58,607 bases of DNA, taken from the NCBI GenBank assembly GCA_023247445.1, contig JAHFGL010000006.1, forward strand, positions 1-58,607, given 5' to 3'. Of this stretch, positions 2,161 to 29,489 are shown piece by piece. The position numbers and the translations under genes were made by a program. The stretch is from Candidatus Omnitrophota bacterium. GTDB taxonomy: Bacteria; Omnitrophota; Gorgyraeia; Zapsychrales; Zapsychraceae. The notes below the pieces were generated by a model. It searched no databases. It had not been told where the DNA came from and saw only the letters and a list, made by a program, of their open reading frames with translations. Each line of letters opens with the position of its first letter. Positions within the stretch are counted from its first letter, which is position 1.

Positions 2161-2178
2161 GGCGAGGTAGCCAAGTGG
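2161..2178 (+). pseudogene. tRNA-Cys fragment 1 of 3 (acceptor and D-arm 5' part)
   Basis: GGCGAGGTAGCCAAGTGG is the 5' acceptor strand (2161-2167) and start of the D-arm of a tRNA-Cys. The sequence then breaks into a hairpin. The rest of this tRNA is found at 2383-2416 and 2532-2554. Joined, the three pieces form a complete cloverleaf with a GCA anticodon and an encoded CCA. It is labelled a pseudogene because it is interrupted. Whether a functional RNA can be made from it is unknown. Confidence 0.7.
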
Positions 2179-2213
2179 CCCCGCCAATCTTAATGTTTGA
2201 ATGGTAGGCGGGG
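2179..2213 (+). repeat. Hairpin repeat A next to tRNA fragment
   Basis: Seven-base arms ccccgcc (2179-2185) and ggcgggg (2207-2213) enclose an A/T-rich core. The right part (aatggtaggcgg) recurs at about 2331-2342 in hairpin B, so these are copies of one element. Confidence 0.6.
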
Positions 2214-2235
2214 TTCCGACTAAAACTTTAATAAC

Positions 2236-2307
2236 GGCGCGGTAGCCAAGAGGTAAGGCAGAAGTCTGCAAAACTTCTATGCGTCGGTTCAATTCCGACC
2301 CGCGCCT
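2236..2307 (+). tRNA. tRNA-Cys (GCA)
   Basis: Acceptor strands GGCGCGG (2236-2242) and CCGCGCC (2300-2306) pair perfectly. Anticodon stem GAAGT/ACTTC holds loop CTGCAAA with anticodon GCA at 2268-2270. T-stem GTCGG/CCGAC holds TTCAATT. The discriminator is T and CCA is not encoded. It lies inside the first insertion of a second, split tRNA-Cys. Confidence 0.93.
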
Positions 2308-2382
2308 TCTAAGTTCTTTGGTTTTTAATTTAAATGGTAGGCGGAGTCCCGACTTCAATTAAAGTTTTTGGAAACGTCGGGA
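2300..2382 (+). repeat. Hairpin repeats B after tRNA-Cys
   Basis: Two hairpins. The first uses the 3' acceptor of tRNA-Cys (cgcct) as its left arm, pairing with aggcg near 2337. The second has arms cccgact (from about 2348) and cgtcggg (ending about 2381) around an A/T-rich core. Part of this sequence repeats hairpin A. Confidence 0.55.
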
Positions 2383-2416
2383 TAAGGCAGAAGTCTGCAA
2401 AACTTCTATGCACCGG
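2383..2416 (+). pseudogene. tRNA-Cys fragment 2 of 3 (D-arm end, anticodon arm, T-stem 5' strand)
   Basis: The piece starts TAAGGC (D-arm 3' side) and continues with anticodon stem GAAGT/ACTTC, loop CTGCAAA and variable region TATGC. It ends ACCGG, the 5' strand of the T-stem. The matching CCGGT lies 120 bases away at 2539-2543. It joins without any missing base to the pieces at 2161-2178 and 2532-2554. Confidence 0.7.
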
Positions 2417-2531
2417 CACCAACTTTCCTTAAAGATTATTTGGAAGTTGGTACTGCGCTGACTTTTTCTAATTGAAAAAAGGTTGGTGCAGTGCTGACTA
2501 CCATAATATTAGTTAAGGTAAGTCAGCGCGG
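2417..2531 (+). repeat. Hairpin array C inserted in split tRNA-Cys
   Basis: 115 bases with nested inverted repeats. Caccaacttt pairs with aaagttgg-like sequence. Gcgctgact (from about 2456) pairs with agtcagcgc (2520-2528). Gtgctgac near 2491 is an alternative partner of the same right arm. No reading frame of note. Confidence 0.55.
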
Positions 2532-2554
2532 TTCAAGTCCGGTCCTCGCCTCCA
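2532..2554 (+). pseudogene. tRNA-Cys fragment 3 of 3 (T-loop to CCA)
   Basis: TTCAAGT loop, CCGGT T-stem 3' strand, CCTCGCC acceptor 3' strand (perfect partner of GGCGAGG at 2161-2167), discriminator T and encoded CCA at 2552-2554. Confidence 0.7.
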
Positions 2555-2664: not shown

Positions 2665-2761
2665 ATTGGACCCGTCCCTTGCCATCGAGAATAGTAATTG
2701 TGGCTCGGGACTGGCCCAATTTTTTCTGAAATAAAATTTTTTAATTATTGAAAATTGGACC
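2665..2761 (+). repeat. Double hairpin element running into tRNA-Val
   Basis: Hairpin 1 pairs 2665-2678 with 2707-2720. Hairpin 2 pairs ggcccaatttt (2713-2723) with aaaattggacc (2751-2761), and this right arm contains the first bases of tRNA-Val. The segment ggcccaat is shared, so the two hairpins exclude each other. The left arm of hairpin 1 contains a copy of the tRNA-Val 5' end (ggacccgt at 2668-2675). The core (TTCTGAAATAAAATTTTTTA) is homologous to the element in front of tRNA-Gln at 17529-17577. Confidence 0.65.
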
Positions 2762-2834
2762 CGTAGCTCAGCTTGGTTAGAGCGTTTCCTTGACATGGAA
2801 AAGGTCACAGGTTCGAGTCCTGTCGGGTCCACCA
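2757..2834 (+). tRNA. tRNA-Val (GAC)
   Basis: Acceptor GGACCCG (2757-2763) pairs with CGGGTCC (2824-2830). The anticodon loop is TTGACAT with anticodon GAC. The T-arm contains GTTCGAGTC. Discriminator A, and CCA is encoded at 2832-2834. The thrS start codon follows only 5 bases later. Confidence 0.95.
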
Positions 2835-17373: not shown

Positions 17374-17440
17374 AGGTGAAGGTTGAGCTTGGTTGCCCTG
17401 CATTTGTTTCTCTGAATAGAAATTTATTGAAACAAATACT

Positions 17441-17577
17441 GGACAAAACTTTCCAATGTAAAAGTTTCTAATTTGGGTGGTTTTGTCCCGCCCTTCCTTT
17501 TCTGGAAATATTTTTGGTAGTTGGGACTGGGCAAAGCTTCTCTAATATAAAAATTTTTAATTGTAGTAGCTTTGCCC
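17441..17577 (+). repeat. Triple hairpin element running into tRNA-Gln
   Basis: Hairpin 1 pairs ggacaaaact (17441-17450) with 17479-17488. Hairpin 2 pairs gtccc (17485-17489) with gggac (17523-17527). Hairpin 3 pairs gggcaaagct (17529-17538) perfectly with agctttgccc (17568-17577), whose last five bases are the start of tRNA-Gln. Hairpins 1 and 3 are homologous copies, and their arms differ by paired changes (ggaca/tgtcc versus gggca/tgccc). The sequence GGGACTGG and the A/T core are shared with the tRNA-Val element at 2665-2761. Confidence 0.7.
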
Positions 17578-17646
17578 TGTGGTGTAATGGTAGCACAAGT
17601 GATTCTGGATCACTTTGTCTAGGTTCGAATCCTGGCGGGGCAGCCA
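17573..17646 (+). tRNA. tRNA-Gln (CTG)
   Basis: Acceptor TGCCCTG (17573-17579) pairs with CGGGGCA (17636-17642) with one G-T pair. Anticodon stem AGTGA/TCACT holds TTCTGGA with anticodon CTG. T-arm AGGTTCGAATCCT. Discriminator G and encoded CCA at 17644-17646. Confidence 0.93.
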
Positions 17647-29164: not shown

Positions 29165-29252
29165 CTTCTTCGGTAGCTGGCTAGCCCTTAACTTCATTGT
29201 AAGGCCCCTTTAGTTTTGCGTCCCCGGGTTACCCCGGGTTTGCCTTTATCGT
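29165..29252 (-). promoter_or_regulatory. Cyclic-di-GMP-I (GEMM-I) riboswitch
   Basis: Read on the minus strand: AAAGGCAAACC, a GNRA-capped stem (cccggg-GTAA-cccggg), GGGACGCAAAACTAAAGGGGCC, and at the 3' end GCTAGCCAGCTACCGAAG. This is the conserved order of the class, including the GGACGCAAA joining region. It lies about 120 bases before the metalloprotease start. Downstream of it, aaataagatg and catcttattt can form a long-range stem that may be the expression platform. Confidence 0.9.
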
Positions 29253-29489
29253 TTTTTACTCTACTGGAAGTGTAAAACATAATTGTTATTAAAACAAGGG
29301 CTAGGGAAATATATATTCTTGATTTATGGTTGGTCTAGTAGGTTTTTTAAATAAATCCTACCGAAGCTTGAGGTAGGAGTGATACAATGTTGCAGACTTA
29401 AATGCTTTCATGGCAACGGTTATGAACTCTCAATTACAACAGAAAAAATCATATTTTAGTAATAATAAGATAAACAATTTTATTTAATA
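29253..29489. other. Intergenic region before dsbD-like gene
   Basis: The minus strand side holds a plausible promoter for the riboswitch (TTGTTT, 17 bases, TACACT). On the + strand tcctacc (29356-29362) and ggtagga (29372-29378) form a hairpin, with gtagg upstream (about 29338) as an alternative partner. No gene was recognised. Confidence 0.4.

Follow-up and report, generated by a model that had tools for sequence, protein, structure and literature searches.

Bacterial tRNA genes are usually viewed as stable sites at which larger elements dock harmlessly, and the integrases that usually target them do so in such a way that the gene is restored on insertion. Among smaller elements, bacterial MITEs and the Rickettsia palindromic elements (RPEs) are short, non-coding, palindromic and repeated, and are bordered by a short target duplication, and RPE insertions are found within genes as well (PMC10969869). 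The word "tRNA" is absent from the main text of that review of MITEs and RPEs (PMC10969869). In eukaryotes, the Dada DNA transposons insert inside tRNA genes and make short target duplications (PMC3706591, PMC8869645); they encode a DDE transposase, their duplications are 6–7 bp long, and harm is avoided because their targets are multicopy genes (PMC3706591). Short palindromic elements, REP sequences and eukaryotic tRNA-targeting transposons are already known (PMC10969869, PMC8266576, PMC3706591). At the locus described here, and at comparable loci for many isoacceptors of a single genome and across several families of its order, small elements break tRNA genes outright, apparently while supplying a substitute.

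A tRNA-Cys gene in three pieces around an intact tRNA-Cys gene

The window, that is, the whole 58,607-nt stretch of Candidatus Omnitrophota DNA that was analysed, contains a locus with the layout coaBC homologue, tRNA-Cys, tRNA-Leu, tRNA-Val and thrS, and the tRNA order Cys-Leu-Val is kept in nearly all of the relatives examined. A sequence-only reading had placed three pieces of one tRNA-Cys between 2161 and 2554, and both direct reading and ARAGORN on the joined sequence bore this out. The pieces lie on the plus strand at 2161–2178 (5′ piece, GGCGAGGTAGCCAAGTGG), 2383–2416 (middle piece, TAAGGCAGAAGTCTGCAAAACTTCTATGCACCGG) and 2532–2554 (3′ piece with the encoded CCA, TTCAAGTCCGGTCCTCGCCTCCA). 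When joined, they gave a 75-nt tRNA-Cys(GCA) with all stems fully paired and no mismatch, which was 93% identical over positions 1–75 to the intact tRNA-Cys of one relative. In the unjoined locus, ARAGORN and Rfam detected only an inner, intact tRNA-Cys(GCA) at 2236–2307 (plus strand); this is the complete, different tRNA-Cys that had been noticed in the first interruption. The join had been described as lossless, and the joined copy is indeed perfect, but the second insertion left a 3-bp duplication: CGG flanks the insert on both sides (2414–2416, the end of the middle piece and first copy of the duplication, and 2529–2531, the second copy), so that this junction is ambiguous by 3 bases. The second interrupting segment, given as about 115 bases, consists of an insert at 2417–2528 plus one CGG.

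Insert 1 (2179–2382, plus strand) lies in the D-loop and is composed of two terminal hairpins in inverted orientation around the intact tRNA-Cys, with no target duplication seen. Its left hairpin unit (2179–2213, plus strand) matched the family model described below weakly, at 16.3 bits, and its right unit (2347–2382, minus strand) at 22.6 bits. With this weak left unit and no visible duplication, it is by anatomy that insert 1 would be assigned to the hairpin family. A repeat search also found a direct repeat in insert 1 (TTTGAATGGTAGGCGGGGTTCCGACT, 2196–2221, plus strand, second copy at 2329–2354); when GGTAGGCGG was considered as a dispersed exact repeat, the only copies were the two in insert 1. 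Insert 2 (2417–2528, plus strand), at the edge between T-stem and T-loop, is a 112-bp element without cargo, with the CGG duplication on either side. Its left unit (2417–2452, plus strand) scored 43.3 bits, being among the 17 sequences used to build the model, and its right unit (2492–2528, minus strand) scored 31.7 bits.

The inner gene is the sole complete tRNA-Cys found in the genome. It differs from the outer tRNA-Cys at 8 positions. Three compensated stem pairs (5-67, 48-64 and 49-63) account for six of these, indicating that both genes were functional when they diverged. The inner T-arm is identical to that of the tRNA-Cys of one relative (G003, locus L024), and the anticodon arm common to the inner and outer genes was not seen in the 25 relatives compared. 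On these sequence comparisons, the evidence for the origin of the putative Cys cargo is mixed, since the T-arm matches that of G003 and the shared anticodon arm also fits a local duplication.

The conserved neighbours tRNA-Leu(TAA) and tRNA-Val(GAC) follow at 2565–2649 and 2757–2834 (both plus strand). Ahead of the latter stands a tRNA-Val decoy (2668–2716, plus strand) in which a hairpin stands between the first 7 nt of the tRNA and a reverse complement of the tRNA start, and where a repeat search located an inverted repeat (2710–2723/2751–2764); a hairpin unit at 2715–2759 (plus strand) extends its right arm into the tRNA. Two further units, detected with the family model at 17401–17438 and 17491–17526 (plus strand), lie before tRNA-Gln(CTG) (17573–17646), and all matches in the window at E ≤ 0.1 were confined to the Cys-Leu-Val cluster and the front of tRNA-Gln. 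Decoys occur before many tRNAs of the genome as the first 7–12 nt, a hairpin unit, the reverse complement of the tRNA start and an apparent promoter region. In this layout, of which 2668–2759 and 17401–17526 are examples, the promoter occupies a hairpin loop, and the 5′ end of the tRNA forms the right arm of that hairpin. The decoys may be regulatory, or may be an older layer of the same insertions. Elsewhere in the window, a c-di-GMP-I-GGC riboswitch was found above the Rfam threshold (29168–29253, minus strand).

A family of hairpin units and palindromic elements

The inserts are built of hairpin units of about 35 nt in which the loop is conserved and the arms vary and covary, and some units carry a GGTAG-like inner motif. 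In an alignment of 17 units, 95.6% of the cells were paired and 28 two-sided arm changes were counted against no one-sided change, all of them exchanges of full Watson-Crick pairs with no G-U intermediates; as these units had been picked as hairpins, the pairing itself is expected, and the absence of G-U is the informative part. Read from the alignment, arms of this kind point to DNA palindromes and not to selection on RNA. An earlier, loose hairpin motif was outmatched by its own reversed control, and a covariance model was used instead. In the genome, this model found 62 units at E ≤ 0.01, a lower bound, with 150 candidates scored in the search. Thirty-six of the 62 lay within 400 bp of a tRNA gene, compared with 1.06 expected, for a model whose training hairpins came mostly from beside tRNAs.

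A complete element has two units in inverted orientation as its ends, the inverted hairpin-unit pair forming its terminal inverted repeats, and is about 80–240 bp long (78–237 bp as measured) and non-coding. As regards cargo and DISPLACEMENT, cargo-less elements measured 104–115 bp and tRNA-carrying elements 202–237 bp. In the tRNA-carrying elements at Leu-CAG, Val-CAC and Arg-TCT, the gene lies between both end units and within a single 3-bp duplication, while insert 1 has the same arrangement without the duplication.

Target duplications and landing sites

With the exception of insert 1, an exact 3-bp direct duplication was present at all of the complete elements in the genome that were not 79 bp long (11/11). 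These represent about 10 independent sites, each with a chance of 1/64 of showing such a duplication at random. The duplicated trinucleotide was mostly CNG, with CGG, CAG, CCG and TGG among those seen: CGG at insert 2 of the window, CAG/CTG at the Leu-CAG, Val-CAC and Arg-TCT elements, CGG/CCG at the Pro-CGG and Thr-CGT elements, and CCG, CGG or TGG at elements away from tRNAs. The Thr-CGT element occupies the same T-arm site, with the same CGG duplication, as insert 2. The 79-bp copies, which occur about ten times, have CG on both sides and all lie in one kind of dispersed repeat, and they may derive from one event. Solo units before tRNAs also stand between CNG-like trinucleotides, which were identical in 10 of 30 cases.

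Within tRNA genes, breaks were located in the D-loop, in the anticodon arm (loop or stem), in the variable region and in the T arm. The idea that insertion is always in loops was dropped, because one Arg-TCT insert sits in the anticodon stem. Elements away from tRNAs were found in or beside other palindromic, hairpin-forming repeats; at loci L115, L193, L203, L208, L211 and L073–L076, family elements lie within other dispersed palindromes, of the GTCATCCTGAG type and others. What the landing sites seem to have in common is hairpin-forming DNA with a CNG trinucleotide, and not the tRNA loop as such.

Broken and nested tRNA genes in the genome and its relatives

The split tRNA-Cys is not an oddity of one gene, as Leu-CAG, Val-CAC and Arg-TCT and the tRNA-Cys of one relative also rebuild the cognate tRNA when the inserts are left out. 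About a quarter of the tRNAs tested in the genome (11 of 44) had a fragment of themselves on the same strand within 400 bp; in the controls, none of the 44 had one on the opposite strand, and searches beside non-cognate tRNAs gave 0, 2 and 0 of 44. In five cases (Cys, Leu-CAG, Val-CAC, Arg-TCT and Ser-CGA) the tRNA is nested: the intact gene has a 5′ fragment of the same tRNA ahead of it and a 3′ fragment behind it. Nesting was also seen in relatives, for tRNA-Cys in G019, where the intact gene lies inside a tRNA-Cys split at the anticodon, and for tRNA-Leu in G044. With the inserts left out, the outer copies contained 0 mismatches for Cys and Leu-CAG, 1 for the Cys of G019, 3 for Val-CAC and several for Arg-TCT (ARAGORN), indicating decay after splitting; dead copies of different age would show such a graded series.

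Broken copies next to an intact gene were found in several relatives as well. The relative G036 (L019) has a tRNA-Cys copy broken at the same D-loop spot beside an intact gene, L008 holds broken tRNA-Cys and tRNA-Leu copies beside intact genes, and a tRNA-Val at L012 is broken in its T-loop. In a second genus (G011, L139), the anticodon loop of a Leu-CAG copy is interrupted at the same site as in the present genome, with CAG on either side. Two more complex arrangements were noted. In G044 (L140, 1150–1750), an intact tRNA-Leu(CAG) gene lies amid two 5′ fragments and one 3′ fragment. In G051 (L003, 1930–2234), tandem mini copies of tRNA-Val, consisting of acceptor-stem halves around a hairpin and each followed by the same upstream region, precede the real tRNA-Val.

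All isoacceptors in the genome are single genes, except for the initiator/elongator-type Met genes. At Leu-CAG, the split gene shares 90% identity with the gene of one relative (G042) and 86% with that of a second (G020), and the nested gene is 95% identical to the gene of another (G008) and 81% identical to the split copy; both types are patchy within the same families. Since the nested gene is nearer to that of G008 than to the split copy, it is a divergent version and not a fresh duplicate, and appears to have displaced the resident.

Candidates for the mobilising enzyme

Y1 transposases were present in 11 of 13 genomes. The genome studied here has four Y1_Tnp (TnpAREP-like) genes (C24:14719, C19:17508, C58:3669 and C59:13087), and the one on C19 (L084) lies within a 19-bp inverted repeat (TAGGGACACGTACCTTTTC). 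A Y1/TnpAREP enzyme was rejected as the mobiliser, because the arms that flank these genes (GGGACA-type and others) differ from the hairpin family; a resemblance of the L084 arms to the family was lost in relatives, and none of the Y1 loci examined was flanked by family hairpin units. A pattern search for an autonomous partner with the same ends located the inner end at known elements only. In G019, an ORF of LAGLIDADG type (L022, 1745–2400) adjoins the nested tRNA-Cys and several tRNA-Cys half-fragments. A homing endonuclease as the general engine was discarded, the LAGLIDADG family being present in 5 of 51 genomes, absent from this one, and with most of its other matches not at tRNAs. Integration of an attP/attB circle via the direct repeat of the inserts was dropped, given the 3-bp duplications.

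How the tRNA-Cys gene was probably split

The palindromic family, its short target duplications and its recurrence at further tRNA genes and beyond this genome support the earlier suggestion of a recent insertion by mobile, hairpin-forming DNA. The accompanying idea that the element spares its target holds roughly, with the qualification that insert 2 duplicated 3 bp and that other joined copies contain up to several mismatches. We consider it probable that two MITE-like elements, both small, palindromic and non-coding, inserted into the tRNA-Cys and so split it at the DNA level, insert 1 bringing a tRNA as cargo. In this scenario, a palindromic element carrying an intact tRNA-Cys would have entered the resident tRNA-Cys, and the carried gene would have kept the cell alive despite the loss of an essential single-copy gene. 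The cargo gene would now do the work, the split copy being dead and decaying, and the cargo-less insert 2 would have arrived later, in the dead copy. The insertions and the element family can be read directly from the DNA. Cargo transfer and selection would be the interpretation placed on them: the match between cargo and target (Cys in Cys, Leu in Leu) could have arisen by selection, because cells would survive an insertion into an essential single-copy tRNA only if the inserted tRNA replaced the destroyed one, so that homing would not be needed. Free hopping of the cargo would predict tRNA-carrying elements outside tRNA genes, and none was seen; nor did an empty site come to light.

Among the rival explanations (ALTERNATIVES), the main one, especially for Cys, is that the tRNA was first duplicated locally and was not cargo, the palindromic elements having gathered in the redundant copy afterwards. 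The single-gene state of the isoacceptors (Met aside), the confinement of tRNA-carrying elements to tRNA genes, the anticodon arm that the two Cys genes share and that was not seen in the relatives compared, and the tandem 5′-end decoys at many tRNAs all fit such a course of events. A tandem pair with later insertions, however, would not put the intact gene between both ends of an element and within one 3-bp duplication, as at Leu-CAG, Val-CAC and Arg-TCT, and the nested Leu-CAG belongs to a divergent type and was not copied from the split gene. We therefore regard local duplication as unlikely, although it is the rival that deserves the most weight.

The split tRNA-Cys might instead still be expressed, with its inserts removed from the RNA by splicing, or trimmed away by RNases to leave a tRNA in three pieces that its stems hold together. 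This would suit the perfectly paired outer stems and the ideal tRNA that results on joining, the breaks at the D-loop and T-stem/T-loop edge, and an acceptor stem that is still paired in the centroid fold. Yet the tRNA splicing endonuclease EndA was found in 0 of 29 genomes (this one and 28 relatives) by a search that was positive in 4 archaeal controls; the Rfam matches in the window were tRNAs and the riboswitch only, with no group I/II intron core; the arms vary by complete Watson-Crick pairs, as in DNA palindromes; and one Arg-TCT insert lies in a stem. Moreover, other split copies decay, and removal at the RNA level is not needed where an intact cognate gene is present inside the insert. 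This proposal, raised in the sequence-only reading, is accordingly very improbable. Remnants of phage or ICE integration would place the inserts at a usual integrase target, but they are 112–204 bp long, non-coding and without an integrase gene, no duplicated tRNA 3′ end lies beside them, the duplication is 3 bp, and the breaks occur at several tRNA positions; we give this origin hardly any credence. Misassembly, which the division of the genome into 75 contigs and the location of the locus 2 kb from a contig start might favour, is just as improbable, as unlinked loci, and relatives whose genomes were assembled independently, show the same anatomy.

Insertion of small palindromic elements, one of them with tRNA cargo, is thus our preferred reading for tRNA-Cys. 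We put forward more tentatively, as a possibility that falls somewhat short of an even chance, that a family of tiny palindromic transposons with tRNA cargo is at work throughout the lineage, each inserting into the resident gene for the tRNA that it carries and thereby displacing it. If this were true, essential single-copy tRNA genes would have been replaced repeatedly, in some cases by divergent versions, with Russian-doll remnants left behind throughout a bacterial order. The elements appear to drive turnover of essential tRNA genes in this genome and its relatives. The broken copies would offer a mechanism for replacing essential tRNA genes by divergent versions, as well as a natural record of replacements of different age and a means of dating them. 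They also call for caution in such genomes, where tRNA annotation overlooks broken copies and misreads fragments.

Comparison with known systems

In the open-access literature, we found no palindromic family that carries tRNA genes and sits within the cognate tRNA, although this does not prove that none has been described. Archaeal tRNA introns and split tRNA genes (PMC4090602) are similar in that tRNA genes are interrupted at non-canonical positions, but here there is no splicing endonuclease, an intact gene is present and the split copies decay. The REP/BIME sequences of TnpAREP (PMC8266576, PMC3733652) are likewise small palindromes, often in inverted pairs; some of the units described here share a GGTAG-like inner motif, and Y1_Tnp proteins are encoded in this genome too. 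In the present family, however, the arms vary from copy to copy and the loop is conserved, the elements are bordered by 3-bp duplications and lie in tRNA genes, and no conserved palindrome preceded by a GTAG foot was seen beside a tnpAREP gene. Compared with Dada, the elements are non-coding, make 3-bp duplications and enter single-copy tRNA genes, apparently supplying the replacement. With MITEs and RPEs they share the short, non-coding, palindromic and repeated structure and the short target duplication, but they are concentrated at tRNAs and nested in hairpin-forming DNA, and some of them contain a whole tRNA gene.
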